Assembly (NCBI GenBank): GCA_003313425.1
Contig: NHZP01000056.1
Coordinates: 186,001-250,000, forward strand
Source: Pseudopyrenochaeta lycopersici
Taxonomy: Eukaryota; Ascomycota; Dothideomycetes; Pleosporales; Pseudopyrenochaetaceae
DNA: 64,000 nucleotides
Direction: 5' to 3'
The first letter of the stretch is position 1; each line of letters opens with the position of its first letter. Of this stretch, positions 1,694-20,342 are shown piece after piece. The position numbers and the translations under genes were made by a program. Under the pieces are notes generated by a model. The model was not told the origin of the DNA. It ran no database searches and saw only the letters and a program-made list of their open reading frames with translations.

Positions 1694-4600
1694 CAGTGTG
1701 GCCAATGGATGGAACTATTTGGATTGTCCATCCAATCCGCTTCGTTTTGGATTGGATTGGATTGGATGGAGGAATCCAATGAATCCAAATCGAAATTACT
1801 GCCGCCACATTGTGGTGGAGATTAGAGAACGAGGCATCATAGTGCCAATGCGTAAGCCATATTCGCTAGCTAAGCGGAATGGCTGATTCCGAGCGAATTT
1901 CTTCGCATTATCGTGAAGATAATTCTGAGTACGGGGCGACAGATACTCCGTGCATAAGCCACTGGAATCATAGCTATTTGCTTCCTTATAAAACGAGCCC
2001 AAGGTGACGAAGTCTGAGTTGCAAGGCGTTGAAGGTGTCGCACCTTTTCAAAAAAAAATCAGCTCTGGATCTAACATGCCTCATTAAGTTATTGTTCTTG
2101 TTTTGCTCTCCGCAGCAGTTATCACTACTGTTATTACTGCGTCACATGACATCACTATTACCTCTTACGGTTGACGCTTTACGGTCATTTGAGGGGGAGA
2201 AGGTTGCTCTATCTGCTCCTTCAACATGCTCTGCACTGTCTGCACCACTCTCCGCGGTAGGGCCCTGAAATAATTCTCTTGCACTTATACTAACCTTCCT
2301 CTGAATAGGATGGCCGAGCTTTCGTCGCCAATGAGTCCCATTATACCGATTCGGACCACGATTGGTCGTGGGTGCAATGGAGGTTGCTTCCCGGACATTC
2401 AATCCCTTTGTCACGTTCAATGAAGAGGATTCGAGGATGGTTCTGGGCGTTTGGCGCACCGACAGAGGAGCAGGGGACGAAGAAAAGATTCTGGCCCTGT
2501 AAGGAATGTCATCTGGCTGGGAAAGGTAGCCATTACAACACCGACAATGGTACCTCTGCCGTGAATACACATTTACGAGATATCCATCATCTGGCCTGGG
2601 ATAAAGACAACAAAGAAGTTATCGACGATACCTCAAAGAGGTGGCTCTGGACAATGAAAGGCAAGCCCGCTCCCTCTACGGCGGATGCTGCTAGCCTCGA
2701 CGCGTCTATTCCTCGAGAACAGGAAATCATGAACTATTTAGCGCGAGAATTTGATACGAATCAATTCCAGAGGCTTCTCGTTCGTTGGATTGTCTATGAC
2801 AATGTCTCCTTTCGTCAAGTTGATAGTGCAGCGTTCCGTGAGCTCATTAGATACCTCTCTTCCCGTGCGGAACCTGCAATGCCTTCCCATACCACGATTT
2901 CGGCCTGGGTAGCTCATGGTTTTGAGCTTCATAAAGCGACAGTGAAGAAGGAGTTAAAAGATGCTTCGAGTAAAGTCCACTTCGCATTTAATCTCTGGAC
3001 CTCCGGAAACCTATTATCACTCAACGGCATTGTCGCTCACTTTCTCAACAAGGACTTTAAGGCTCGATGCATCCTTCTCTCGACTCCAGAGCAACTGGGC
3101 TCACACGCAGGTATCAACATCGCCGATGGGGTTAGCAAGGTTATCGACGACTTTGAGGTCATGAACAAGATTGGATTCTTTGTGCTTGACAACGCTTCGA
3201 ACAACGATACGGCAATGGATGCTCTTGCATAGACGTATGGTTTTGATGCTATTAAACGACGCCTTCGCTGCTCTGGCCATATTATCAATCTCATTGCTCG
3301 CCATCTTCTTTTCGGCGTGGACCCAGATTTATTCGAAATGGAGGATCAGATGCCAAAAAACATCAAAGAGAGTTTGAGGCATTGGAGAAAAAACGGACCG
3401 GTCGGCAAACTTCACAACCTGGTTGTTTGGACGTATTCAAGCCCCCAACGACGAGCTAGATGGGTCGCAGGTAAGTTTACTGCCCTTCCGGCAAATTCAG
3501 TTCTTAATGTACCGTAGCACAGCAGAAATACATCGAAGAATCCGATGGTGAGGCCGATAAAGCTGACCTCAAGACTTACGAGCTCTGCCGAGACAACAAT
3601 ACACGCTGGAATAGCGTCTATAATATGCTCCGTCGTGCGAATAAACTCCGCAATGCTCTCGATTATTGGCTTGAATCAGAAGAGAGACTGATCAAACGGA
3701 ACAATGCCAAGGGTACAAAGTTGCCAGTTGAGGATGCAGCAATCTGCAAGGACATCTTCACAGATAGGTTAACGGAAAAGGACTGGGACATACTCTCCGA
3801 GTATGAAAGACTGCTCAGGCCATGTTATGAGGCGACGCTAGATCTACAGGGTCGACCAGGTGATGGTACATCCAGCGGGCTGACAAACGTCATTCAGGAT
3901 ATCGAGTATATTCTCGAAGAGCTGACTGCTGTTTATGCCTCATACGAATCTGCAGCAGAAGACATTATTCAAGGGGAATGGCATTTCAAGGCCCAAATCA
4001 AGCTTGCAATCGACAAAGCTCAACAGTATTACTAGAAGCTTGGAGACTCGCCTGTCTACCTTGCCGCCGTCGTTCTTGATCCTGCGAAGAACTGGGATTA
4101 TCTCGAAGCGTTCTGGAATAAGCAGCCGAAGTGGATCAAAGACGGGCAGAGAGCAGTTAAAAGGCTCTGGCTTGACAGCTACAAGCAACAGCCTATTTTA
4201 GATGCCCTTTCGCCCCAAAAGAAGAACCCGCGCGATGGTGAGCCCACGGGCATTCAAGCGTATCGAATGAGAGGTATCAAAGCTGCGCAGACAGCTAACC
4301 GTGAGAAGAGAAAGGATGAATATGACCGCTATTGCACTCAAGGGCAGATCGAGTGTGACGAGCCAATCGCCTGGTGGACAACGACTGGCAAAGCCCAGTA
4401 TCCGCAGCTTGCGCAGATGGCTATCGATATTCTCAGTATTCCGGCAATGAGCGACGAGCCAGAAAGAATATTTAGTAGATTGGGCATGATGATAACTGAC
4501 CGCCGCAATCATCTACAGTGTAGTACAGCACAGGCAGCACAGGCAGCACAGTGTCTGTATTCATGGGACAAGGCCGGTATTATCGACATAAGGCAAAAGC

Positions 4601-4861
4601 CGGTTGAATGAGAAAAGACGTCATATTTTGTAGCAAGATCTCTACATCATACTTTAGATTAATCCATTACAACCATTTTCTAACGAAATTATCCCCATGG
4701 GCGTTGTAGAGATTTCCATAATACACATTGATCACCCGCTCAGACCACTATGGCTAAGGCTGAATGGATTGAACTAGATTGGATTTGGATTGGACTGGAT
4801 ACCCCTGGATTTTGTGGCGTTGGATTGGATCGACGATCCGTTCCATCCATTCGCCACACTG
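1694..4861 (+). mobile_element. hAT DNA transposon 1
   Basis: A 3168-bp hAT element. The termini form an inverted repeat of 22 bp with one mismatch: CAGTGTGGCCAATGGATGG at 1694 and its reverse complement ending at 4861. Just inside each end lie short direct repeats of GGATTGGATTGG (about 1730-1790 and 4765-4830), typical subterminal transposase-binding arrays. The single gene inside (2146-4611) encodes the transposase. The 8 bp on the left (CCCATACC) and right (GTGATGCT) do not match, so I see no target-site duplication. Either the flanks have been rearranged since insertion or the true ends lie slightly elsewhere. Confidence 0.8.
2146..4611 (+). pseudogene. hAT transposase with two TAG codons
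   Basis: I model three exons: 2146-2256, 2309-3470 and 3518-4611. The introns (52 and 47 bp) have GT/AG ends, the first with TACTAAC, and all phases agree. The product would be about 788 aa. Domains in order: a BED-like zinc finger (WPCKECHLAGKG ... HLRDIHH), the hAT catalytic core with FAFNLWTSGN and FFVLDNASNNDTAMDALA, then NNTRWNSVY, and the C-terminal dimerisation block ending IDILSIPAMSDEPERIFS. Two in-frame TAG codons interrupt it, at 3230-3232 (expected Gln before TYGFDAIKRRLRC) and 4033-4035 (expected Trp before KLGDSPVYLAA). Both are explained by one C-to-T or G-to-A change, consistent with RIP. Otherwise the gene is complete. Confidence 0.82.
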
Positions 4862-5840
4862 GTGATGCTGCATCTGTCAGATCAGTGGTGTCACTGGTGA
4901 GAGACTCATCAACTGAAAGGTTTGTGAATGAGGAATTGAGTTCAGACCCCATGTCGGATAGCTGGTAAATCAATGCAGGATGATTTTTGATGTAATTCGG
5001 ATGGTTCTGTGAGATCTCGTTGGTTTGTTTGTGGCTTCAATCGGTGGCGTTCGGCATGGCAACCATTTTGTCGAGGCTCGATTCAAGGCTTGACTTGACT
5101 CGACGCTCGATTGATGGCGCTCGATTCCATTGGCTCGACAAGCTCGGGCTTGAAAATCACACTGGGTGTGGGCAGAGCCGGCATACAAGTTCATCCTTGT
5201 TCAGCGTGTCCTATCCTTGGCCATCATCCTCATGTCGACCAATCCTGCATCATCGTTCGTCCAGCCAGAACGAGGTGTAGTGAAGTATATTGAGTGCTTT
5301 CTCCAGCCTATATCATTAACCCAGCTTGATTGTACCCAGCTTGATTGTACTGCATTTCCCGTTGCTGAATAGACGATGCCTGGCGACAACACTAACCTAG
5401 ATCTACCCTTCTGCCTGACTATCTGGCCCTGACCTGACCTGACCTGATTTTTGTAAGTTGCGATATATAATTGTTGCGATATCAATTGGTCCGCACGTGG
5501 CCGGACTGTCGCTACTCAGACTATCCTGGACTAGCATGTTTCCGGACAAGTTCACATCGTCTCCTCCTGGCTGAATAGCAACTCAGCGCAGTATTCCATC
5601 GTATCTCACCAGCGGCCCCTTGCCGCAACAATAATAGTTTTGACAGGCAGTGGCTAAAAACTCATCTACGTCTCCATTAGTTTTCGTTCGGCGTGAACGA
5701 AAGCGACAACAGGTTTTTGACCAATCGCGATTGAAGGCGGGGTCATCGGCTGGGATTAAGTGTACGAAGTACGGAATACGAGATACGTAACGCTAAGATC
5801 TGGAACCTAGTTATCTAAGTATATTAGTGTTACGAGATGC
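4862..5840. other. Intergenic stretch without recognisable gene
   Basis: About 980 bp between the hAT element and the DUF6589-RecQ element. No reading frame here resembles a known family. Small-scale repeats are visible: CAGCTTGATTGTA occurs twice in tandem near 5325-5350, and CCTGA is repeated around 5430-5445. It may be host intergenic DNA or an old repeat. Confidence 0.5.
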
Positions 5841-5935
5841 TAGTCTCGTAACTACCAGACGTTCCCTATTCGGGGATAGCCCTGCGCACGCGCCAAGTCG
5901 GGACCCCTCAGGGGAACGTCTGGTGGCCGGTCCAT
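5841..5935 (+). repeat. Left inverted end of the DUF6589-RecQ element
   Basis: Complex terminal repeat. The 25-bp inverted core is 5880-5904. A palindrome with arms CCAGACGTTCCC and GGGAACGTCTGG flanks that core (about 5854-5924), and inside it lies CCCCTCAGGGG. Immediately outside, 5830-5851 is itself a near-perfect palindrome (TTACGAGA...TCTCGTAA). The partner is 14472-14566. Confidence 0.7.
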
Positions 5936-6302
5936 TATTTTTGGCAATCTGAACACGTTTTTATGGTGTAGCTACATACTTCAACCAGCAATAGCACAAC
6001 AGCCACATAATAGAAACCCTTTTTTTTTTACTGCAATCGACTCAGCGGGTTTAAGAGTACCTTATCCGCGCTCTGCGATATTTTATTTTGCTGTGGTGGT
6101 GGCTGAACCCCGTCCGGTGGAAAATGCGATCTGAACACGAGCGTGGGCCAAATGCCCCGCCCGATACGCCCCGCCCCCTCTCCCAACCGACTAGCAGTAC
6201 TGAGCGCGGCTGCGCTTCTAGTAGAGAGTTCGGATAGTCGCCCCTAGTTATATAGAAGGTCGTAGTAACGTTTCCTCAGGTCAGCCAGCCGGGTCACCTT
6301 GG

Positions 6303-8949
6303 TCGTCTCAGTCTTCAATCCCGCTCCCCTCTTCGTCGTCCTCATTGCCAGACCGATCCTCCCTGGCAGACCAAACCTCTACTCCTTCTGCTCCTGCTAA
6401 AAGGGGTCGGCCTGTTGGATCGAAAAACCGTGTTGCTAGTCCTGCAGTTCATACCAGTACACCCTTGAATCAAGCAGAGGAAGAAAGGCTGAGCACTTAC
6501 TTGGAAGTGATTAAGGGGGTAACGCATACTCAAGATGGGAGTGGGCGCTATGGCAATATAACTGATCTGGTGTATCTCCTTGGTCGGACAAGCAGCAAGC
6601 CAAAAAGTCGGGCATCTTTTATAAAGGCAGTTGAGTCGACCCCAAGTATCCTAGGACGGCTGAGGTTGGGTATTGTGCCATCCACAGGGGAAGATATATC
6701 TGGTGCTATCTTAGAAAAGGAGGTCGAGTTGCTTCAGAGCGTCAATATCTTTGGGGAGTATTCGCTGGAGACTGCTCCTACAACACCATCAAGTGTAGAG
6801 ATTTCCACGGAAAGGGAGCTATTTGAGGACGTTGAGCGTCTGGCTCCAGGTACTGTTAGTCTATTACGACGCCTGTGCACCAACGATCTATCTAGGACAC
6901 CTTATGATCAGAACAATTCTCGGATTATTTCGATCCTATCTATTATATGCTTCAGTCGACACCAGCGGAAGTGCAACTACCTTCCCGCAATACTTGGACT
7001 ATTACTCTTCTCTGCTGGTACTAAGAAACAGGTGTTTGATATTACAAACTCAATGGGTTGGACTGAATCGTATTCATCTGTATGGCGTAGTGTTGGTGGA
7101 CTACGGGATGCTGCTAAGGAAGTGGCACGTCAGTTTATCAGAGATGGGCCATGGGCAGTGGTGTACGACAATTGTGAACTGACAACTGGCGTCAGTGAGC
7201 AGGATGACACCTCCAGGAATCAGCTGCATTCAATTACCACCGCCCTTCTACTACCTGGTACTACCCTGCCATTAGGCGGTCTGTCCCAGGCTGATTTTAC
7301 CCCATATGTAGTCGGTATGGACGATCTAACAAAGGATGCGTCTGAAAGAGATGCGTGTTTCTCTAGATTTGTGACCTCTACCGTATACAGTGCACTTGAG
7401 GAGGTATATCCAACATATGTCTTGGAGCAGCTAAAGACTCCGTCAATCAAGGAGCATGCCTCGTACCCGGTGGTTGACCGAATAGCGATTCCGGACGGCT
7501 CTCGCCATGTGCCAATTCCCATTCTTCCTATTCAGACCAGTGAGAATACCACAATGGGTAATATCGACATACTGAAGGACATATTCCTTAATCAGCTTGC
7601 TTTGTCTCCTGAATACTTCGAGAACCGCCCAGCTATACTGGTTGGTGGCGACGCTAAGACCGTCAATCGTATGTGGTCGGCCATATATGGTGCTGGGGAT
7701 AACACCGACACGTATAGCCGACTACATCATGTAGTCCCTATACCTGGACTGTTCCATATGCAGATGCATGTAATACAGACCATTATTAAGAATCACTGGG
7801 GCAGTGAGCCAGCTGGAGGCGAGCGGTGCAACCACTCGTCTCTGCGGTACCTGTCTGGGAAGATGGCTCGTCGGTTTGTTGGTCCTAGGAACCTGGTTTT
7901 TGCTCATGCACGTACGTTCGTATCAGATGCGCTCCAGGGACGGATTATGGCAGAGTTTTTTCAGCAATTAATAGCGTATCCAGGCAGCGGATTGTCTCCT
8001 GAACCATTACCAGACGAATTGGATACCGCAATTAGGGTTCTGCGGCCCCGCCAACTGAAGTCACTGATTACAAAGACGACTCAGTCAATACAGACTACAC
8101 ATCAAAACAGTGGCGATCCAACTGCGCCAGTCGACCTTGAGCGACGAGAGAACCTGCTATTCGTACGGGACGCATTATATTATACTATGTTAACATACGC
8201 AATTTAAGCACGGTGACATCGGCATCCTGCGACATGTACTCAGCTTCCTCATATATATGTTTGAGGGTTCCAGGAAGCCAGTGTATACGCGGATAGCTAT
8301 CTACGTTAAGAAACTCATTGATACTGCGTATGTTACATCTGAAGAGTGTCGAAGAGCTATTGCTGGATGTCTCCTGGTTAACCCAACTGGTCGACCGGAT
8401 GGTTTCTACGCTATTGATCTGGCAAACGAATTCCACAACCGATCAGTAAAGGACATCTGGTCAAATAGGAAGACGACGTCTACTACTGTCCGTTCAGTGT
8501 CTGAATATGGTGCTATTGATGCGCTGTTTCTTCGACCATTACGACTAAGACTACAGGCTATATGGGGTAGACGTTCACTGGGAAAACACGTCCGTGCTAA
8601 CCGCGGCAGGGTTATACACTACGTTGCAATCCAATCACGGCGATCAATAATGCTGGATCCTACGCGGTCTGATCCAGATATCCACAAACTCACATGGTCA
8701 AGAGACGCTGTGTTAAAAGGGGCTAGCACAATCGAGCATACTCTGGGCTCGTTTAATGCCAAATTTATGTACGATTCTGATAGCCTACGGGTCGTTGACG
8801 ATATCCCTATATGGGATAATGATGTGCTGGAGGTATACGACTGTCTAGGGCCAGATGTATATGATGTGGATCGAGCGCTAGTTGAGGCTCTTGCCTGCCT
8901 TCCTACTCCCACCGAGGAGCTACTCGGCGAGGTGGAAATGGGCCTCTAA
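6303..8949 (+). pseudogene. DUF6589 protein, candidate transposase, one frameshift
   Basis: A protein of roughly 865 aa of the fungal DUF6589 family. Visible family landmarks: an AT-hook-like KRGRPVGSKNR near the N-terminus, GPWAVVYDNCEL in the middle, then AILVGGDAKTVNRMWS and PIPGLFHMQMHVIQTII. The C-terminal part has HGDIG and GFYAIDLANEFHNRSVKDIW. The acidic positions in YDN and GGDAKT are what one would expect of an RNase H-like nuclease core, but that is inference. Codons run open from about 6303 but no in-frame ATG precedes the conserved part, so the start is lost or lies in an upstream exon. The frame breaks at 8203-8205: one extra T in ATTTAAG separates LTYAI from KHGDIG. A 46-bp GT-AG intron (8163-8208) would also restore the frame but would delete conserved residues. 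Confidence 0.75.
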
Positions 8950-9222
8950 ACGCACCGTTTTTGGCTGCTGCCTTCGGCGTCAGCTAGGATTGACGTCAGA
9001 GCCATCAAAAGCGGCAATTTTAGTCGAAGCTGCTTCCAAAAGCTTCCAAAATTTGGCAATCTCCGGTGATGTGAAGCAATTCACCACGCGAAAACTTGCC
9101 GTATTAGCACGCCTAGAATATTTCCAGTAGCCGACTCTATTCCATCACACATATACTTAGTTCCTACTATTCTCTTTATCCTTCAAGTTCTTACGATAGA
9201 AGTTTGACCTGCCCCGTTCCTT
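8950..9222. other. Gap between the convergent genes, including the displaced 3' end of the helicase gene
   Basis: Between the DUF6589 stop and the nested hAT. Read on the minus strand from 9222, the helicase frame continues from the insertion point for about 18 codons to a TAA near 9170. This stretch therefore holds the original helicase C-terminus cut off by the hAT. The remaining roughly 200 bp show no gene. Confidence 0.55.
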
Positions 9223-9230
9223 GTATAGCG
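9223..9230 (+). repeat. Target-site duplication of the nested hAT (left copy)
   Basis: GTATAGCG, repeated exactly at 12200-12207. An 8-bp duplication is the hallmark of hAT insertion and fixes both ends of the element. Confidence 0.9.
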
Positions 9231-12199
9231 CAGGCATGTAGGTAATAATTATGTTATATTATATAGTTATATTGTTAGATAACTACATAATACATAACTG
9301 TAACTGCCTCAGGCAGTTATGTTGCCTAAGTTATATAGTTATATAACTCTACAGTATCTTTTGGTGTTGCTGGCCGCTGCATGGAGATGTGAGGTGTCAA
9401 AGTTGCCAGGTAAATCAAGGACGCTCGAGCCCATTTTACCTACAAAAGGGGCTAGTTTTAAACATATTCCGTCTGTGCGCGCGTCGCTTGGGGACTCTAT
9501 GTCCCGTACCGACCCCTGAGCCCTGCCAAAAAGGTAACATCTGCACTCTGCCATCCACATCTTTTTGGTCCCTCCCTGCATTTTCAAATACACTATGGAT
9601 AGCACCCAAAGAACAACTAGGGCTTCTCGACGAGCCCAAGAAGAAGCCAGCGAAGAACTCTCAACGATCTCCGAGCTTGATTCGCGCGACTTTGACGACT
9701 TAACGCTTGCCCGCAAGGACACGCACCACCAAGCCGGTATACCACAAAAAAGGCGCCGGAGAGCACGGGAGGCAGATGAACTTTGGAGCTTTGCATTAGA
9801 TGAGCCTCCTGAAGGCAAACCACAGCGTGGCAACTCGAATCAAGAGATCTTTTACTGCAGGCGGTGTAGAAAGGGACTTACTAGTGCAACTGCCTTCCGC
9901 CTGCATCTCCGGACAACTCACGGCCTGCATATTTTATCGAATAAGAAACCAAAGGTGGAAGAGGAGTCGAATCGCCTCGCTGCTAGCTTTAACATCCAGC
10001 AACAGCGTGCAGAGAGTACAGCGGAGGCCCTAAAGGCTCGAGTTCTTCGCCATTCGGTGAACCAAGCTGACTGGCTAAACGTACTGGTTATGATGATAGT
10101 CAACCACAACCTCCCTCACACGATAGTCGAGTGGCCTGAGTTCCACCTCCTCATGAAGATATCAAATTACACACTGGTTGAGCGCGACGGTCCGGTTAAA
10201 AAGTCTCGCTGGTCTGTTAGAAAGCTGCTAGGAAAGACATATAAAGTTCAAAAGGAAGTTATTAAGCAAAAGCTTGCTGAATCGCTCTCTAAAATACACT
10301 TTACTACGGATATTTGGACCTCACCAAACAAGAGCCACTACCAGGCGATTACGGCTCACTTTGTGGACAAGCTAGGGAGGTTGCAGAAGGCTACATTAGC
10401 TCTTCGTGAGCACAAGGATGGTCATGGTGCTGATGAACAGGAGCAAATATTCTTTAAAGTCCTGCAAGAGTACGAGATTAACGAAGAACGGTTAGGTTAT
10501 ATTACTGGTAGGCATTAAATCTAATAATAAAACCCTTCGAAGTCTATTTAATGGCTAATTGCCTATATACAGGAGACAACCACGGTTCAAATGATAAGAT
10601 TTGCCGCCTTCTCGCTCGTCGCTTCCAACACTGGGGCGCTCAGCAACACCGAATTCGATGTATGGGTCATATTCTTAACTTGGCTTGCCAAGCCTTCCTC
10701 TTTACAAGGAATAAAGATGCGGTAGAGCTAGCTATTAAGGCAGCAGAGGAGCTTCGGCAAGAGGAAGAGAGGCTTGGACTTCACTCAGAGGACGAGTATG
10801 ATCAGAATGAGACTACTCAGGAAGAGTGGAGAAAGTTTGGTCCACTAGGAAAGATCCACAACGTCGCTGTATGGCTCCGTCGCTCACCATGTCGGTATCA
10901 AAGATTTGTTGAACTAGCTGGAAGAATCCTCCCCCGGGACAATGATACGCGCTGGAATTCATGGCTAACAATGTTGGAGGCGGCAATTCAACTAGAGAAC
11001 TACGTAAGAGTCTTTATTGATAAGAACTGGGATGATATGCAGAAGAACTTTATCGATCGCGATGAGTGGGAGAGCTCGAAGGAGACGAGGGATATTTTAA
11101 AGCCCTTTCGCGACACTACCGCCATTCTCGAACGGGATAATGCGACGCTCGATCAGGTGCTAGAGTCAATGGATTACCTTATCAGCCATATTAAAACGAA
11201 GCAGAGCGAGCATACCGCCGACACAAACCTCTCTGCATCGCTTTTGTCCATGTGGTTCGCATTTGACAAGTATTACAAACTTACCGATCGAACACCTGCA
11301 TACGCTGGCGCACTGCTTCTTAATCCTACCTTCCGGAGACGATATCTTGAGGATGAGTGGAAAGCTGTTGAAGAAGTTTACCCAGGTACGATGGATCGGG
11401 CAATTGACGCCGTACGGAGATTGTGGATGAAGGAATATAAGTTTGTGGCTATTCCATGTGAAGCTTCAACGCCAATTGACCCAGAGTCCATTACCAATGC
11501 CCTTGAACGACACCGATTTGAAAGGGAGATGGCTAGGTCTACATCATCAGATGAGTATAAGCAGTTTATTGAGGTGATTCTTATAGGATCTTGCTGCCTA
11601 CAACTTTTACTAACATCTTTCTCTTATAGGGCAACCCCATACCGAGTATTGCTGGCTCTGCCCTTGATTGGTGGCTCGAACCTACCCAGCGTAAGAACTT
11701 CCCACGCCTCTCACGCATGGCGATCGATCTCCTCTCTATCCCAGCGATGTCGGCCGAAAGCGAACGCGTATTCTCCGGAGCCAGGCGTACAATAACATGG
11801 GAGCGACACCAACTTGGCGCTGAGGTTGTTGAGCAGAGTGAGTGTTTGAAGAGCTGGATTAGATTAACAGCTAGGGACGGAAGGACAATGGCAGGTGATT
11901 TGGCTAGGGAGGTGCTGGAGGAGAGTAATGCAATGAGAGATGAAGCTACGGCGGCCGTGCCGGTGCTAGAAGGCCTCCTAAGTCTCTCTACATCGGCGGA
12001 GACTTCCTAATAAAGAAGTTTATATAAATATTGGCACCTATTTTGAGCTTCATGCATTCATCTCACTTTTTCGAAGGGCTTACTAATCCAGTCTTGGCAT
12101 TTTAGGTAACTATATAACATAATATAACTGCCCTCAAGCGGTTATTATATAACTGGAACTGCCCTTCCAATTATGTTATATAAGTTACCTACTACCCTG
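9231..12199 (+). mobile_element. hAT DNA transposon 2, apparently intact, inside the helicase gene
   Basis: A 2969-bp element bounded by perfect 8-bp duplications (GTATAGCG at 9223-9230 and 12200-12207). The inverted ends are CAGGCATGTAGGTAA on the left and CAGGGTAGTAGGTAA (reverse complement of the right end), with the CAGGG start common in hAT elements. Inside each end are further AT-rich inverted stretches built from TTATATAGTTATATAACT-like words and CTGCCTCAGGCAG/CTGCCCTCAAG motifs. The transposase gene is uninterrupted. Insertion near the 3' end of the RecQ gene shows it moved after the host element had settled here. Confidence 0.92.
9595..12010 (+). CDS. hAT transposase, intact three-exon gene
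   Basis: Exons 9595-10507, 10573-11573 and 11630-12010. Introns of 65 and 56 bp have GT/AG ends (the second with TACTAAC), and all phases fit, giving about 764 aa without internal stops. Domains in order: a C2H2/BED-type finger (FYCRRCRKGLTSATAFRLHL ... HGLH, about residues 84-110), and the hAT core with IHFTTDIWTSPNKSHYQAIT. Next come ITGDNHGSNDKI spanning the first splice, DNDTRWNSWL, and the dimerisation domain (MAIDLLSIPAMSAESERVFS, RRTITWER) in the last exon. The ATG at 9595 is chosen because it precedes the first conserved block. With matching duplications around the element, this is the best candidate for a recently active transposase in the window. Confidence 0.88.
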
Positions 12200-14383
12200 G
12201 TATAGCGAAGGCGCCCCGCGGCTAGTCTTTCGTATGTCAGGGCGGGTAGTGTTTGCTCTTGTAATATCTTGTAGTACAGTCGGACCAGGAGTCCTAGAAA
12301 TAGGCGTACCCTGTGAGGAAGAGAGCGGGGGTAGCAAGGAAGCGCTGGGTGCTGTAGTTGCTGGACAGGAATCTACCTGGACCGGTAATGCAGTTACTTG
12401 CCGCACCAGCGCAGTTACTCTATCCCCATATAGCCTATCCCAAGACCAGCCCATCCGGTCACCGCCGGCCACCCGATAATATGCTTCGCTGAACTTCGTC
12501 CGCCAGGCCAGGGATAGGACGCGCTCAGTAGGATCAGGACGTGCGGCAACTAGGATAGAGCATGTAACTTCGTTACCAAGCGTAAATGCTAGCTTCTCAA
12601 GCTCTCTTTCTATAGCAATACCCACGTCCTTGTTTTCTACCCTCTCATCGGCTGGTAGATCTTCTAGAACCACAGGAGAGTCTGCGCAACGCGAGCAGTT
12701 GTTGCAGGGTGCTGGCACATTATGATCATTCTCATACAGCCTCATAATCTCTCGCCAATGGCAGGAGTCTGGTGGATGCCTCCTAAGCCCCCGTTTCCGC
12801 TTCGAGCCAGGCGCGGGACTAGTAGATAGAGACGATTGAACCGAATAAGCGGACACCACTGACATGTCCGAATCTGAGCCATCAGACCCATACAATCTCT
12901 GACTTGCCTCTCGACGCGCCTCATCAACAACAGACGCAGCAGTCCGGACAGCCAACCGTGGGTACTTGGGTTGTCTTGTCTGGGACTGCCGTTCCCCGTA
13001 TACACAGGCATCTAGAGTCCAGAAAAAGACAGCGTCGTCTTGGTGTGTCTGACGATTTGCACGTCCAAGCTTCTGGAGGGCTTCATCAGTGTTACACTGC
13101 CCCCGCTGGACGACATATCGAACCCCAGCTGGGTTAACCCCTATAGCATATGCAACCGTGGCACAAAGTATTCGTATCTTTCCACTAGAGAATTGTTGCT
13201 CTATTGCCACACGGGACGTGTCCGTTAACTCGCCATGGTAGGTCGACACTGTACAGGGGCGGATTCGACGGCGAATTCGGACCTGGAGCCATAGCATGAT
13301 ATTGTCGCGTAGAGAGACACATTGTCGGATTTCTGGCTGGAAGATAATTATCTTAGGAATACGGCTCTCGACAGAGGCATCTATTTCTCCAGCATGGCTG
13401 AGGGCGGTATATATAAGGCGTTTGATAACACTGAGCGGCTCAGCAGTCGAGAAGATATTGAGGTAAACGTCGCGGCGGTAAATGTCGGCTCGTATTACAT
13501 GAATAGGATTCCTAAACCCAGCTTGATCCCTAATTGACTCCCAATGGACAGGCTGTAAAGTAGCGGTAGTGCCAAATAATCGAGTATGACAATCGAGCTG
13601 TTCCCGGAGCTTATAAAGTTGACCCATTGCTGGCCGGAAGGAACCTCCCCAGCTCGTACTCCCGCAGAGATGTAGCTCGTCTATCGCCACAAGATGAAGA
13701 CGTCTCCGGAAACCTGGATGCCGAATAACAGACGTAAATGTCCCATGGTCAATATAGCCACTATCAAACTTCTGGGTTCGCATACGACCAATTATATGGC
13801 GCTCAGACCTAGAACTTTGGTTGCCAGATGGCCTCCCCCTTGTATCCTTCCCTTTCCCATCTCTATTCTCCTCTACCAGGCCAGCTAGCGCAATCTCAGG
13901 GGAGAGCCATATATGGGTGTACTTCCCACAAGCAATATCATGGCGGTTTGAAGCTGTATTGGAGTCGCCGTTTAACACAAAACCACGATACTTTTTGGAG
14001 AGACAGTTTAAAGTAGTACTCTGATCATTCTCAATAGCCTTTAATGGACTTAGTATTAGTGTAATTGGTTGCGCAGATGGGTCTACAAGCTCATGGAACC
14101 CCGTTATAACCAGCGTCTTCCCAAATCCAGTTGAGGCTACTAAGACTACGTCCTCTCCGTTGTATAGTTCTGTGAGCGCCTCCTGTTGTTGGGGCCTTAG
14201 AGGATGCCCAACAATCACCTCCAGCCCTCGTAGACCATCATCCAACGTCCGTCCAGAGTTTGGTATATCAGGGGGGGAGGGCGGGGTGATCGCGGGGGTG
14301 GGCTCGACGGTCAAAGGGTCGACAGGATCGCTGAATATAGTAAAAGACAATGAATTATCATAATTTGAGGGCACTGAATCCAT
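12185..14383 (-). CDS. RecQ-like SF2 helicase of the DUF6589 element, C-terminus altered by hAT
   Basis: 732 codons reading leftward from the ATG at 14383. Superfamily 2 motifs in order: Q-motif-like LRPQQQEAL, Walker A VASTGFGKTL, Walker B AIDELHLCG, LFGTTATLQP (motif III), a second RecA domain with STYHGELTD, and ILCATVAYAIGVN (motif V). Motif VI is QKLGRANRQT. A cysteine cluster (CHWREIM ... CNNCSRC) sits where RecQ enzymes carry their zinc-binding subdomain. The final residues YQGSR and the stop come from the inverted end of the nested hAT. The original frame resumes across the insertion for about 18 more codons. It lies convergent to the DUF6589 gene with little space between, suggesting the helicase assists transposition, for example by unwinding the palindromic ends. 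That role is inferred. Confidence 0.85.
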   Translation of the reverse strand: MDSVPSNYDNSLSFTIFSDPVDPLTVEPTPAITPPSPPDIPNSGRTLDDGLRGLEVIVGHPLRPQQQEALTELYNGEDVVLVASTGFGKTLVITGFHELVDPSAQPITLILSPLKAIENDQSTTLNCLSKKYRGFVLNGDSNTASNRHDIACGKYTHIWLSPEIALAGLVEENRDGKGKDTRGRPSGNQSSRSERHIIGRMRTQKFDSGYIDHGTFTSVIRHPGFRRRLHLVAIDELHLCGSTSWGGSFRPAMGQLYKLREQLDCHTRLFGTTATLQPVHWESIRDQAGFRNPIHVIRADIYRRDVYLNIFSTAEPLSVIKRLIYTALSHAGEIDASVESRIPKIIIFQPEIRQCVSLRDNIMLWLQVRIRRRIRPCTVSTYHGELTDTSRVAIEQQFSSGKIRILCATVAYAIGVNPAGVRYVVQRGQCNTDEALQKLGRANRQTHQDDAVFFWTLDACVYGERQSQTRQPKYPRLAVRTAASVVDEARREASQRLYGSDGSDSDMSVVSAYSVQSSLSTSPAPGSKRKRGLRRHPPDSCHWREIMRLYENDHNVPAPCNNCSRCADSPVVLEDLPADERVENKDVGIAIERELEKLAFTLGNEVTCSILVAARPDPTERVLSLAWRTKFSEAYYRVAGGDRMGWSWDRLYGDRVTALVRQVTALPVQVDSCPATTAPSASLLPPLSSSQGTPISRTPGPTVLQDITRANTTRPDIRKTSRGAPSLYQGSR

Positions 14384-14471
14384 TTCAGAAGAGAAAACGC
14401 GTGAATTTTTGGTGTATTAGTGATCTATCGCGGTGTTGATTTTCGCGTCGTGTATCAACGCGTATTTTTGG

Positions 14472-14566
14472 CGGACCGGCTACTAGACCCTCCGGAGAGG
14501 AGAGTCCCGACTTGGCGCGTGCGCAGGGCCACTAACCCCTTCGGAGGGCAAGTGGCAACTAGACTA
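14472..14566 (-). repeat. Right inverted end of the DUF6589-RecQ element
   Basis: Partner of 5841-5935. The 25-bp inverted core is 14504-14528, flanked by palindrome arms CCCTCCG and CGGAGGG. Outside it, to about 14620, several short hairpins (GTCCG/CGGAC, GGACT/AGTCC) occur before the LTR begins. Confidence 0.65.
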
Positions 14567-14625: not shown

Positions 14626-14836
14626 TGTCAGGGTTCGGCTGCGATCTGGTTCAGCAGCGATTGCTCGAGTAACGAATAGCAATAGTATTAGCTTAGCTAG
14701 GGACGAGACTAGGTACAAGACGTAGCACGAAGAAGGAGAAAAGGGTTTCACGTCCGTGATCCCTTCAGGATCACGGTTCTGCGTTGATCCGCTCCGGATC
14801 GTCGTGTCCGTGCTCGTGTCGCGTGGTCCCGTGACA
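14626..14836 (-). repeat. 3' LTR of gypsy element
   Basis: 211 bp, TGTCAGGG...CCCGTGACA, with TG/CA-type ends. Nearly identical to 20133-20342; the clearest difference is one extra T at GCGATTGCTCGAG. Confidence 0.93.
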
Positions 14837-14855
14837 CTATTCCCCCCTGAAACAA

Positions 14856-16502
14856 TTAGGAGCTCCTGCGACGCCACAATTCCGATGGTGAAGGTTTCTC
14901 TGGGTGTTGAACGTGGAACTCATAAAGAGTTGCTTCAGAGCCTGGTATCAAATCCTTTTGTGGTCTCCAGGACGAGGGGGAGCCTTTCCAACTAACAAAA
15001 TATTCCAATCGTGTACGTCCCCGTCTGTTCTTGGTGATCCTCGAGTCGAGTATCTTCTTGATCATCCATTCCTTACCATTCCTATCTCGCTCCGTAACGA
15101 CGCGCGGAGGGGATTGCTGATGTTGCCCTGGTAACGGGTCCGTCGCGGCTGCTCGGAGCAGGTTTGTATGGAAGACGTTGTGGTTTTGCATAGATCGAGG
15201 AAGCTCCAGGCGGTAGGTTGTTGGGCTGATTACCTCAATAATACGGTACGGGCCAATGTATCTCTCAGAGAGCTTCTTGCTAGGTCGTTCCATCTTCAGG
15301 TTTCTTGTGTCTAGCCAAACTTTGTCGTCTTTCTTGAAAACAGGAGCGGGTGATCGAGACTTGTCCGCATTTTCGGCGTGCTGGGCTTGAGCCAGTCTCA
15401 TTTCAGCATGGAGGTAGTCCGTAAGTTCCTGCATGCTTTCAGCAAACTTATCCGCCGCTGCCATGTCAAGTTGATGTCGCGCGGGGAGTCGACATATCGC
15501 GCCAGGTGGTTCGTGGCCCATGCGCGGATGCTGTCCGTAAGCCGCAAAGAAGGGGGTAACACCAGTGGATTCGGAACAATGGTTGTTCGCAGCAAACTCC
15601 GCCATAGGGAGCCAATTCACCCAGTCGTTTTGAAGATAGTTCACGTAAGATCGAAGATACTGTTCGAGGATCTGATTTGAGTTTTCCGATTGACCATCTG
15701 TTTCGGGGTGGAAAGCTGTAGAGAGTTTTGTGATGATGCCCAGCCTTTGGCAGATTCGTTGCCATAGTTTTGAGGTGAATTGAGTGCCCCGATCAGACAC
15801 AATGGTCTTGGGCAGTCCATGATGTTTCCAGATATGATGGAGGAACAAACGAGCAACGTATTTCGCCTCTATAGATCCACATCCAATGAAATGTCGTTGT
15901 TTCGAAAGCCAGTCAGTTACTGCCATGATGTTTCGACAGACTTAGCCTGTCGTCTCCGATCTGCTCCTTGGGAGGTCGACGATGAAATCCACCGCAATGT
16001 GTTCCCACCTTCTTGTAGGGACCTGAAGCGGTTGTAATAGTCCCTGATACTGGAAGCGGGATGTCTTTGATCTTGAGCAGGTATAACAATTGCGCACATA
16101 CTGTCGTACCGTACGGCTCATGTTTGGCCACCAGTAGTTCCGCGCCAATAGTTCATACGTCTTAGCTCTACCCGGGTGTCCCGCTGCAACGCCGTCATGA
16201 CAGTGTTGTAGGAGTCGTAGACGCAGGGGTTCGTTGTCAGGAATGAATAAGCGGTCTCGGTAGTATACACGGCCCTCTCGCTCCACGCACTCTGCTAAGG
16301 GGATCTTCAAGGGGGCGAGCGCAGAAGGGAGACGGCGATCTCCACTCTGTATTGATGCTAGGATCTGTGATGGGATTGGGTCCTGTTCATAAGCTGTCAT
16401 GATGAGCGTGTCCAAGGTGGGCTGGTTGAGTGTTTCGCTATCCACCGTGTTTTGGTTTAAGACAAGTGGTTCCATTCCTGGGGATATATTGTGTGGTTTC
16501 AA
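14856..16502 (-). pseudogene. Integrase and chromodomain part of pol, with an in-frame TAA
   Basis: Continuation of pol reading leftward. It shows the zinc-binding HHCC region (H at LLQHCHDGVAAGHPGRA, then CYTCSRSK) and VDFIVDLPRSRSETTG. An in-frame TAA follows at 15942-15944, and the same frame continues as TDWLSKQRHFIGC. Catalytic-core landmarks after the stop are TIVSDRGTQF and FHPETDGQSEN, corresponding to the second Asp and Glu of D,D-35-E. A chromodomain closes the protein: KKILDSRI, LEYFVSWKG, SSWRPQKDL. Integrase joins cDNA to the chromosome; the chromodomain probably directs insertion to marked chromatin. CAA to TAA by one C-to-T change, consistent with RIP, would account for the stop. 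Confidence 0.88.
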
Positions 16503-16570
16503 GACCGTCTGATGCTGGTGACTATGTCGCTCATCGTTCTCGTTTTGTGGGAGATCTGAAGAGCGTCGCG

Positions 16571-18640
16571 TTAGAGCGTCCGGTTTCCCACCCTGAGCTC
16601 CTGGGCGGTAAGTGAGCCTGAAGTCGAACCGAGAGAGGTACTCGCTCCATCTAGCTTGCCGTCGATGAGGCGTTTCGTCGTCATAAAGTACTGGAGGTTC
16701 TTGTGGTCGCTCAGGACCTCTACCGGAAACCCGGCTCCCTCCAGCTCAGCTCGCCATTCTTCGAATGACCGTACGATCGCCATCAGCTCCTTGTCGTAAA
16801 TGTCGTAGTTGCATTCCGTCGGGGTCAACTTCCTAGAGAAGAAGGCTACGGGACGCAGAATTCCATTCTTATCCGGTTGGGATAGGCAGCCTGCATTCAC
16901 GTAATCTGATGAGTCACACTCAATTGTGCTAGGTTTTCCCGGATCAAAGTGTTGCAGGATGGGCGCCGTTGTGAATGCCTTCTTCAGTTCCTTAAAGGTC
17001 TGGGCGCATGCTTCACTCCAGACAAAGGTAGCCGATTTCTTAGTGAGTTTCGTAAGTGGTGCCGCCTTCTTCGCAAATCCTTGAATAAACCTCCGGTAGA
17101 AGTTAGCGAATCCTAAGAAACTCTGGACATCTTTAACGTTCCGAGGAGTCGCCCAGTTAACGACCGCCGAGATCTTTTCTGGGTCCATTCGTATCCCATT
17201 GGTGCCCACGATAAGGCCTAAGTATTTCACTTCTTGGACGTGAAATTCACACTTCACGATGTCGGCTTGGAGGCCAAAATCTCGGAGGCGTTCGAGTACT
17301 TGTCGGACATGTATCTTGTGTTCCTTCAGCGTTTTGCTATAGATCAATATGTCATCGAGGTAGGCCGTGCAGAAAATATCGAGGTAGTCTCTCAAGGCGT
17401 CGTTGATGTAATGCTGGAACGACGCGGGCCCGTTAGTGAGTCCAAATGGCATCACGAGGTATTCGAATAGCCCATATCGTGTGCGGAACGCTGTCTTCCA
17501 CTCCTCTCCTTTGGCAATGCGCAGCCTGTTGAATGCGGCAATGATATCCAGTTTCGTGTAGTATTTTGCTTTACACAATCGATCCAGTGTCTCCCGTATT
17601 AGAGGTATGGGGTAGCGGTTCTTCACCGTGATCGCGTTAAGGGCTCGATAATCCACACAGAAGCGGAGCCCACCTCCTGGTTTTCGGACAAACAGAACAG
17701 GGGACGCTGCAGGGGATGATGATGCCCGTATGAAACCCTTCCCAAGGTTCTCTTCTAGTTCCTTTCGTAGAACTTGTAGTTCTTCTCTTGACATGTCATA
17801 AAGCGGTCCAAAAGACGGTTCCGTGCCTTCTTTCAATCGTATCTTGTGGTCGTAAGGACGATGAGGTGGGAGTTTGTCTGCTTCCTGTTTGGAAAATACG
17901 TCAAGAAACTCATGGTATTCTGGCGGAAGCTTTGAGCGAGGATCTATCGCTATCTTCGGTGCGAGAGCTTTCTCAACATCTCTCAACGATGCAGCAAAGA
18001 TCTGGTATCTCGCTCGAACTTTGCGTGCGTGATCGGCTAGGTAGACGAAGGGGGCCGCGCCAATCATACAGACGTCTAGGACATCCGAGTTTCTTCCTAT
18101 GGGCTCTAGTCCTTGAATCTTCGTAGGTGAGGTTATGCCGCAATTCTGTTGACAGTAGTCTGACGCAAAGGTCAGCGTGTTGTGCTTCCATGAGATTGCG
18201 GAGTCGTGGAGCTGTAGCCATGGGATCCCGAGAACTATTGGTTGTTGGCCCAGTTTAGTGACAAAACAAGGGAGGATTTCCTTGTGGCCTTGAATTTCCA
18301 TGGCGAGTAGTACGAGGTGCGTTATACGGCCCGATATCGACTGGCGGCCGTCTACTACTTCCAACCGACGGGGTATCCGTAACTGTGAGAGAGGAAGGTT
18401 GTTTTCGTGCGCAAAGGACTGGTCTATAAATGCTATTCCGTTAGCTCCGCTATCTACGAGTGCGGTAGCTCGCAACTGCCCTTTCTCGGTTTGTACCGAG
18501 CAAGAGAGGACTAGGTGGCTACCACTAAGTCTCTTCTCCTCTGTAGAGCAAGCTGATATTGTCAGCGAATTGTCGTCCTCTTCTCGTTGTCCTAGACCGC
18601 GACTTGGGCCTAGGACTGCGCATTTCCCTCTACCACTGTC
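16571..18640 (-). pseudogene. Protease, reverse transcriptase and RNase H part of pol
   Basis: Reads leftward in the -1 frame relative to gag, overlapping the gag end. An aspartic protease motif ALVDSGANGIAF is followed by reverse transcriptase with RFCVDYRALNAITVKN, LDIIAAFNRL, MPFGLTNGPASFQ and the catalytic YLDD in FCTAYLDDILIYSK. RNase H follows with TIECDSSDYVNAG and SDHKNLQYFMTTKRL. After MTTKRL the frame breaks near 16664 by a single-base deletion, and the conserved RRQARWSEYLSRFDF continues in the next frame up to the integrase. No ATG begins this frame, so production probably depends on ribosomal frameshifting at 18622-18628. Confidence 0.9.
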
Positions 18641-20100
18641 TCATCGCCATCTGAGTCAAGAGTTGCCTTGCTCACGTTGTTCTGGGGTCTCGTTGGTAAT
18701 CGAGGCATCTCCTTCATTTGCGGATTTCCGCATTCATTAATTCTGTGTCCGTGTTCGCCACATTTATAACACCGTCCATGCTGGGCTAGCAGTGCACGTT
18801 CTGTTGCGTTTGGTCGATATCCGCCCAATCTACTGTTCGTGACCGTCGTCGTGCGTGTTGCTCGGGCTGGCTCGGCAGACCGGGTAGCGTTGAAACGGCC
18901 GAGCGTTCTCTTGTCATAATCTCGTAGCTGATGGTCAATTTCTCGGTAAAAGTCAACCAGGTCGTAATACTCGAGAGGTTTCTGTAATCCAATGACCTGG
19001 CGGGCTAATTCGTTGGAGATCGCATTCTCCAGAAGAGGGGCTAAAGCATCGTCAGAGTATCCAATCTCCGCCGCGCAGCGGGCGAAGTTGGCATAGAATT
19101 CATCAAACGTCTTCTTTCCCATGCGTAGGGTACGTAGTTCGTTTATAGCGCGGTTCCGTTTGTTCTTGTCGCCATAAATCTTTTCGAGGGTGCCGAGCAC
19201 GTCTTCTGCATTCTGGAAGGGCCGTACGTGGTCTGGTTGACAACGAGCCCTAATCTGTTGGTAAGCCTCTCCCTCCGTTCGGCTCTTGATGTAAGCGATG
19301 CGATGGTAGTCGGTAGGGTATTGGACAGCACTATTGTTGAGCTTATCTTGGACTTTGTCCTTCCAACTGTCGAACGCTGCCCGGTCTCCTGAAAATACAG
19401 GTGCGTCCGGGAATTTGGAGTTGTCGTGCAGTTGTCCTGCGACAGTCGCTGACGTTAGCCGGCTCGTCTGCCGCTGAGCCGCCTCGGGCGTGGCTCGCTG
19501 TGACATTGCTCCTGTAGCTTCTTCGCGGGGCGCTTGGTGTCTAGATTCTAAGTAGGCGATGATGGCTTTGTTTTGCTTGTGTTCCTTCTGCAATGCTGCT
19601 ATTTGCGCTCGCAACGCGGTATTCTCTTCTTCCATCGTCTGCCTATATATCGCTTCGCGCTCCTTTTCGTGACGTAGTGTACGGATCTTCCCATTTAAAC
19701 TCAATATCTCCTCTTGTGCGGTCAAATCTCCTAGGGATGCTGGGGTTTGCTGAGCTCGTTTATGCATTTCTAGGAACACGTCCCACCAAAACTCAGGGTG
19801 GCTCCTGATTCGGGTCCATGATTTATGGCTGTCCAGAGTTTGGGATCTTCGAAGAGGTCGCAAGGGGTGTTCGCGGCCAACATAGTCTACTGCGTCGATA
19901 ATCGTGTTCGATGGAGTTTTGGGATTTCCGTCTGGGGCAGGGTCGAGGACTTCTTCGTTGCTTGGCTCGTAATTGTCATCGTCATCCGAGATGTTGATCT
20001 CGGGCGTTAGGTGAAGTCTAGCGGGCTTTGATATGCGTTGGCTTCCTGGTCTGTGGTCGTCGTCATAGTCATTGTTATCGTAGTTGCCTTGGCTGGCCAT
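18610..20100 (-). CDS. Gag of the gypsy element
   Basis: 496 aa from the ATG at 20100, only 32 bp downstream of the 5' LTR. A coiled-coil-like region (about residues 130-185: EEILSLNGKIRTLRHEKE and following) precedes the retrotransposon Gag region (FDSWKDKVQDKLN ... NKRNRAINELRTLRMGKKTF). Near the C-terminus is a CCHC zinc knuckle, CYKCGEHGHRINEC. Gag packages the RNA in cytoplasmic particles. The frame is intact. Its end contains the heptamer GGGAAAT in the phase required for -1 slippage. Confidence 0.9.
   Translation of the reverse strand: MASQGNYDNNDYDDDHRPGSQRISKPARLHLTPEINISDDDDNYEPSNEEVLDPAPDGNPKTPSNTIIDAVDYVGREHPLRPLRRSQTLDSHKSWTRIRSHPEFWWDVFLEMHKRAQQTPASLGDLTAQEEILSLNGKIRTLRHEKEREAIYRQTMEEENTALRAQIAALQKEHKQNKAIIAYLESRHQAPREEATGAMSQRATPEAAQRQTSRLTSATVAGQLHDNSKFPDAPVFSGDRAAFDSWKDKVQDKLNNSAVQYPTDYHRIAYIKSRTEGEAYQQIRARCQPDHVRPFQNAEDVLGTLEKIYGDKNKRNRAINELRTLRMGKKTFDEFYANFARCAAEIGYSDDALAPLLENAISNELARQVIGLQKPLEYYDLVDFYREIDHQLRDYDKRTLGRFNATRSAEPARATRTTTVTNSRLGGYRPNATERALLAQHGRCYKCGEHGHRINECGNPQMKEMPRLPTRPQNNVSKATLDSDGDETVVEGNAQS
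18622..18628 (-). promoter_or_regulatory. Putative -1 ribosomal frameshift site (GGGAAAT) joining gag to pol
   Basis: On the minus strand the codons GAG GGA AAT contain G GGA AAT, an X XXY YYZ slippery heptamer, four codons before the gag stop at 18610-18612. Slipping back one base enters the pol frame, which is open from here to the protease. Position and phase are seen directly; use in vivo is inferred. Confidence 0.6.
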
Positions 20101-20132
20101 GCCGGCAAGGTGTTTTGGTTGGTGCTACGTAA

Positions 20133-20342
20133 TGTCAGGGTTCGGCTGCGATCTGGTTCAGCAGCGATGCTCGAGTAACGAATAGCAATAGTATTAGCTT
20201 AGCTAGGGACGAGACTAGGTACAAGACGTAGCACGAAGAAGGAGAAAAGGGTTTCACGTCCGTGATCCCTTCAGGATCACGGTTCTGCGGTGATCCGCTC
20301 CGGATCGTCGTGTCCGTGCTCGTGTCGCGTGGTCCCGTGACA
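20133..20342 (-). repeat. 5' LTR of gypsy element
   Basis: 210 bp, TGTCAGGG...CCCGTGACA. Transcription would start in this copy and run leftward. Only 32 bp separate it from the gag ATG. The bases right after it on the minus strand (TTACGTAGCACCAACC) do not begin with TGG, so I see no standard tRNA primer site. Confidence 0.93.

Follow-up and report, generated by a model that had tools for sequence, protein, structure and literature searches.

A stretch of 64,000 nucleotides from the fungus Pseudopyrenochaeta lycopersici (C56:186001-250000, in an assembly of 62.7 Mb and 188 contigs; hereafter the window) contains, between its positions 5841 and 14566, what is very likely a DNA transposon of AcademH type, autonomous and moving by cut and paste. 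It encodes a protein of the DUF6589 family (PF20231), listed in Pfam as a family of unknown function, and a RecQ-like helicase. AcademH is an already described kind of transposon, to which this element adds a member, plus a link between DUF6589 and a transposase fold. The original prediction, made from the letters of the window, had proposed for DUF6589 the role of transposase in a two-component element whose other member is a RecQ helicase, and shared ends, 9-bp target duplications, uninterrupted sites, gene linkage and the predicted fold all speak in favour of this proposal.

Extent and Movement of the Element

The limits of the transposon are most clearly seen by comparison with a second copy on contig 25 (C25; L016 2032-7778), which is 99% identical to that of the window, lacks a hAT transposon nested in the latter and measures 5,747 bp. 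The alignment of both copies runs from window position 5841 to 14566 and stops at these two bases, the very coordinates that had been predicted for the whole unit, nested hAT included. Its inverted ends, expected to be about 95 bp long, were found on the left at 5841-5935 (+ strand), where a 13-bp internal palindrome also occurs, and on the right at 14472-14566 (- strand), each starting with TAGTCT on its own strand. When aligned in inverted orientation, the two 95-bp ends show 70 identities over 100 columns, with a score of 32.5 compared to a maximum of 1.0 among 500 shuffles, and they share a perfect core of 26 bp (5879-5904 on the + strand at the left, 14504-14529 at the right). As a separate observation on the window copy, its left flank carries the sequence GTTACGAGA (region 5829-5852), which is the reverse complement of element bases 4-12 (TCTCGTAAC, 5844-5852), and the junction of the left end is palindromic through GTTACGAGA / TCTCGTAAC.

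Alignment of the flanks of several copies, as the original prediction had suggested, revealed common ends, 9-bp duplications and uninterrupted sites, both in the window's family and in a sister family whose DNA is ~64-75% identical to it over the matched pieces. The C25 copy is flanked by a perfect 9-bp duplication, GGTGCCGCA, which is at once the end of its left flank and the start of its right flank. Sister copies show CATCTCAGG on contig 72 (C72), GCTCTGGCG on contig 112 (C112) and a duplication with 8 of 9 matching bases on contig 79 (C79). Altogether, three of the six copies with both ends have a perfect 9-bp duplication (C25, C72 and C112), one has 8 of 9 bases (C79) and two have none. 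Joining the flanks of the C72 copy with a single duplication gave a search in which 39 of the 40 matches listed (40 of the 166 candidates were scored) run through the join with the insert absent, the other one being the flank of C72 itself. For the C25 copy, the join was covered in 24 of 27 matches, most of which start only 4-7 bases left of the duplication, and for this reason the junction was rechecked by a pattern search. The 22 bases over the junction (five before, the duplication and eight after) are present without interruption at 17 places as an exact match and at four more with one mismatch. The same pattern without its first five bases (17 bases) is found at 25 places, in comparison with 21 for the full version, from which it follows that the target repeat starts five bases before the duplication and that the element lies 14 bp inside it. 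The unit bounded by 5841 and 14566 moves by itself.

The DUF6589 Protein

The gene for the proposed DDE (Asp-Asp-Glu) transposase occupies positions 6345-8949 of the + strand, where PF20231 matches two open reading frames (ORFs) with E-values of 6e-30 and 2.4e-12; in the C25 copy it is a single open frame of 867 codons. A sequence search of solved structures with this protein gave nothing at E <= 1, and the literature searched does not name DUF6589, the accession PF20231 being met only in an unrelated optics paper. In the structural comparison with RNase H-fold transposases that was advised with the original prediction, a second structure aligner, used besides Foldseek, placed the DUF6589 model best with the RNase H-fold DDE transposases Hermes, P element, ISCth4, RAG1 and Transib, and folds of RNase H-type transposases make up the first 22 of the 50 matches listed.

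The YDN and GGDAKT motifs, which had been thought to fit an RNase H-like core, do fall where the first two catalytic acids of such a fold are expected. The putative first catalytic Asp (YDN, codon 7167-7169, + strand) lies in the first strand of the model and is invariant in 12 of 12 homologues, and the putative second one (GGDAKT, codon 7650-7652, + strand) follows strand 354-360 and is kept in 11 of 12, with a gap in the twelfth. The candidate for the catalytic Glu is that of DLANEF (codon 8428-8430, + strand), invariant in all 12 sequences and located in helix 614-630 of the model; since D521, D548, E591 and D615 (P0001 numbering) are also invariant among these homologues, this choice is one that we infer. 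The DUF6589 gene is under purifying selection. Because of the RNase H-type fold match, the acids at the expected places and this selection, DUF6589 is very probably the transposase of the element; both the cutting of DNA by this protein and the assignment of its catalytic acids are to be read as predictions.

The Helicase and Its Linkage to DUF6589

The RecQ-like helicase gene is encoded on the - strand (12185-14383, its own sequence ending at 12208) and carries the PF00270 (DEAD) and PF00271 (Helicase_C) domains. In the C25 copy it forms one open frame of 749 codons, which matches the NCBIfam model recQ_fam (TIGR00614) with an E-value of 6.5e-27, and among proteins of solved structure WRN and RecQ proteins are its best relatives. 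The stretch DELHLCGSTSWGGSFRPAM resembles RecQ motif II and its aromatic loop; Pfam detected no RQC, HRDC or RecQ zinc-binding domains in the protein. Regarding the arrangement of the two genes, they are convergent as predicted, and what did not stand is that they fill the space between the ends, since 9231-12199 is the nested hAT.

The original proposal to look for DUF6589 genes within 6 kb of a RecQ gene was followed by a protein search in this genome, to which the count of linked loci refers (linkage in other fungi rests on the literature). DUF6589 was detected above the Pfam cut-off at at least 25 places in at least 22 loci (26 rows, one of them under the cut-off). A helicase match occurs at 6.1 kb or less from DUF6589 in 16 of 22 loci, and the two genes converge in 16 of these 16; the expected linkage was thus found for most loci and failed for six. 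Three groups can be told apart among the linked loci. Two are the window's family and its sister family, and the third is a distant set (C43, C55 and three loci on C5), in which the helicase matches share 26-34% identity with the helicase of the window. A scan of viral contigs found no relatives.

Insertion at the Ends of Other Repeats

A readable boundary is available for 13 copies of the sister family (one on contig 37, cut off at the boundary, was excluded), and 11 of them are inserted at a single place in another repeat or in its relative. Nine copies (C72, C79, C64, C57, C80, two on C70, C105 and C86) are inside a single high-copy repeat, which they enter at bases 17-27 from a sharp end starting TGTCGCAGG, and two more (C112 and C56:58k) occupy the equivalent place in a diverged relative of this repeat. 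In the last two, which are the duplicated copy of contig 25, the first three bases of the element are altered and directly adjoin the end of the repeat. Within the target repeat, the copies of C72, C79, C64 and C86 are oriented one way and those of C57, C80, C70 and C105 the other way, C86 being also shifted by 1-2 bp. Both orientations and the shift indicate several separate insertions, although the C70 copies and C105 have common flanks and count as one event.

In the window's family, two of the four copies tested are located 5-14 bp inside repeat ends. The C25 copy interrupts a 1.6-kb inverted-repeat element at 14 bp from one end. The left flank of the copy on contig 28 (C28) is the end of another inverted-repeat element that stops five bases short; at 11 of 11 other places found, the missing five bases are one letter off the start of the C28 right flank, so that continuity holds for 4 of 5 bases. 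The left flanks of the C78 and C41 copies were considered as well and discarded, not being repeat ends.

We regard it as somewhat short of probable that transposons of this helicase-carrying kind home in on other mobile elements at their ends. What the transposase or the RecQ helicase recognises there may be DNA that is palindromic or opened, or a sequence motif instead of a structure may be the cause of the target choice in a genome that is repeat-rich. Two further observations concern the same target repeats. At L031 2054-2140, target-repeat bases 1-27 run into an end that resembles the right end of the sister family and diverges after ~35 bp; it may belong to one more related family that uses the same insertion site. 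On contig 71 (97350-97588), target repeats of the C28 and C25 types are found end to end, ~10 bp apart, and their ends share ATAATTCG.

A Model for Transposition

The transposase would consist of an RNase H-fold core, with the Asp of YDN, the Asp of GGDxKT and the Glu of the DLANE helix as its catalytic acids, split by an all-helical insertion that we liken to those of Hermes, P element and RAG1. Such a protein would bind the ~95-bp ends, cut them and join them to a target site opened with a stagger of 9 bp. As to the helicase, we prefer a role in the template-directed repair of the gap at the donor site, where the sister chromatid would be copied across the gap and the element restored at its old site while reaching a new one, and the RecQ-type helicase would dismantle the invading strand so that copying ends cleanly. 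This role is suggested by analogy, because the host RecQ helicase BLM acts in such a way at P-element gaps: in Drosophila, as described in passages of PMC8951532, the gap repair intermediate needs disassembly by BLM to prevent a processing that forms deletions. The sister copy C112, which keeps both ends and a perfect duplication and has lost its middle (1,967 bp vs 5.8 kb), is what an unfinished gap repair would leave, and as a single copy it serves as an illustration, not a proof.

Weighing the Alternatives

Several points weigh against the reading of the region as an AcademH transposon with a DUF6589 transposase and a repair helicase. Foldseek alone gave nothing significant for the DUF6589 model, with TolC as its top match and a best transposase at E 0.014, and the fold assignment therefore relies on the second aligner; the mean predicted local distance difference test (pLDDT) score of the model is 71.4. 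Pairs of copies with few differences have ratios of nonsynonymous to synonymous substitution (dN/dS) of 0.37-0.77, based on too few changes to judge. The recQ_fam match is under the curated cut-off of the model (219.8 bits), and the preferred role of the helicase draws on an analogy and one deletion copy. The window copy and C28 (two of the six copies with both ends) have no matching 9-bp duplication at their ends. The AcademH assignment was made by the features described for that lineage. Finally, no helicase match was found near DUF6589 in six of the 22 loci. Four of them (C69, C71, C68 and C140) contain 12 to 20 stops within the matched stretch. The other two (C25:833k and C25:849k), each on a different strand of a single contig, show no difference in the 4,807 bp compared, and they resemble the full element C72 only up to a point just before the helicase gene; as duplicate stretches cut short before the helicase, they were rejected as counter-examples to the linkage. 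These two stretches (L042 and L043), ~16 kb apart, each contain an open DUF6589 frame of the sister family (947 codons from stop to stop), and the pair is either a recent inverted duplication or an assembly artefact.

If the two genes were cargo of a larger mobile element, of which 5841-14566 is only a part, one would understand that the sister copies with an intact boundary are all in one repeat family or its relative, a pattern that a composite element could mimic, and that the window copy is not flanked by a duplication. Such a larger element is nevertheless highly improbable, given that both orientations and a shifted site occur in the target repeat, that 39 of the 40 joined-flank matches listed lack the insert, and that five different left flanks border the same ends in the window's family. 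Purifying selection on DUF6589 would also fit a pair of host genes, or a domesticated pair, lying by chance between repeats, an explanation to which the finding of several nearly identical units at different places, with common ends and target duplications, leaves practically no room. A KolobokH element, from another fungal lineage that combines a DDE transposase with a RecQ helicase, is very unlikely. A RecQ helicase in a fungal DNA transposon is a feature of KolobokH that is also present here, and passages of PMC9587614 describe KolobokH as encoding a RecQ helicase and as known only from fungi. The duplications in our copies are 9 bp long and varied (GGTGCCGCA, CATCTCAGG, GCTCTGGCG), not the TTAA of KolobokH, and the helicase is here a separate gene convergent to DUF6589. 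Kolobok elements insert at TTAA.

A different question, compatible with AcademH membership, is whether the ends act as cruciforms or hairpins that are opened or stabilised by the helicase, since RecQ helicases act on such structures. The original prediction of ends that fold into cruciforms served by the helicase found little to sustain it. In the left end, the 13-bp inverted pair shows pairing in 81.3% of cells, compared to 22-49% in registers slid by 1-3 columns, and as single-stranded DNA this end folds with a z-score of -2.14. Against this stand the lack of any pair changed on both sides among the 13 pairs across seven left ends, the loss of 3 of the 13 pairs in five or six of the seven sequences, and a right end that folds with a z-score of -0.50, with 51 of 200 shuffles as good. 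Moreover, two inverted binding sites would explain the palindrome of the left end equally well, and we consider the cruciform idea unlikely.

The Nested hAT and the Surroundings of the Window Copy

The insert at 9231-12199 (2,969 bp) is foreign to the original unit, as revealed by the uninterrupted site in the C25 copy. It is flanked by an 8-bp duplication, GTATAGCG, at 9223-9230 and 12200-12207, and has the roughly inverted ends CAGGCATGTAGGTAA / TTACCTACTACCCTG; its naming as a hAT is based on these ends, the 8-bp duplication and coding sequence judged by eye, and searches of its ORFs (9565-12010) against Pfam and NCBIfam gave no transposase family at the cut-offs applied. The nested hAT interrupts the 3' end of the helicase gene and supplies its last codons. 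In addition, the DUF6589 frame of the window copy has a break near 8205 that divides it into two ORFs. Because of the broken transposase frame and the replaced end of the helicase gene, the window copy is either dead or dependent on other copies; intact DUF6589 frames are present elsewhere in the same genome.

On the right, 59 bp after the transposon, a long terminal repeat (LTR) retrotransposon starts (14626-20342, - strand), with LTRs of ~211 bp that are 99% identical and with five outer bases on each side that differ. A reverse transcriptase, an integrase and a chromodomain are recognised in it by eye. As the right flank reaches this retrotransposon after only 59 bp, the surroundings of the window copy have been remodelled. 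To the left, in the region 3625-4611, two ORFs (3625-4035 and 4267-4611) resemble by eye the C-terminal parts of another hAT transposase.

Implications

If DUF6589 is an RNase H-fold transposase that moves together with a RecQ helicase, annotators could remove such pairs from fungal gene lists, and it becomes testable why a RecQ helicase should be encoded by a cut-and-paste element itself. If the preference for the ends of other elements is real, it would offer a clean case of transposons using transposons as safe harbours, and true homing would make this element a parasite of parasites that avoids host genes.

Comparison with Known Systems

The DUF6589 model has the RNase H fold in common with Hermes (hAT), P element, ISCth4, Transib and RAG1, in a structural match where the alignments listed show only 7-10% sequence identity. 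These enzymes have an all-helical insertion ahead of the last catalytic acid, and none of the corresponding elements is known to have a RecQ partner. Helitrons, which lack inverted ends and target duplications and encode a Rep-helicase protein, are at odds with the inverted ends and 9-bp duplications described above; Pfam, moreover, finds only DUF6589 in one protein and superfamily 2 (SF2) helicase domains in the other.

The AcademH lineage of the Academ superfamily was reportedly defined and named by Kojima in 2020 (Mob DNA 2020;11:15). The portions of the AcademH descriptions consulted do not speak of a preference for repeat ends, nor did the literature passages seen deal with Academ and target preference, the one on preference in PMC6416283 naming Zisupton and a review on the topic not containing the word Academ. 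In the literature, a RecQ helicase is mentioned for Academ (PMC3627910), and fungal Academ copies are said to carry DEAD/recQ_fam domains and to be often annotated as host genes (PMC6416283). AcademH itself has been tied to DEAD and Helicase_C domains and reported in Basidiomycota, Ascomycota and Mucoromycota (excerpts of PMC10799480), with duplications of 9 or 10 bp instead of the 3 or 4 of AcademX (excerpts of PMC10045372). The element described here resembles AcademH in its DDE-type transposase between inverted ends, as indicated by the ends and the fold matches, in its RecQ/SF2 helicase, with PF00270, PF00271, a recQ_fam match under the cut-off and WRN/RecQ relatives, and in the length of its target duplications, which is 9 bp wherever these are found.
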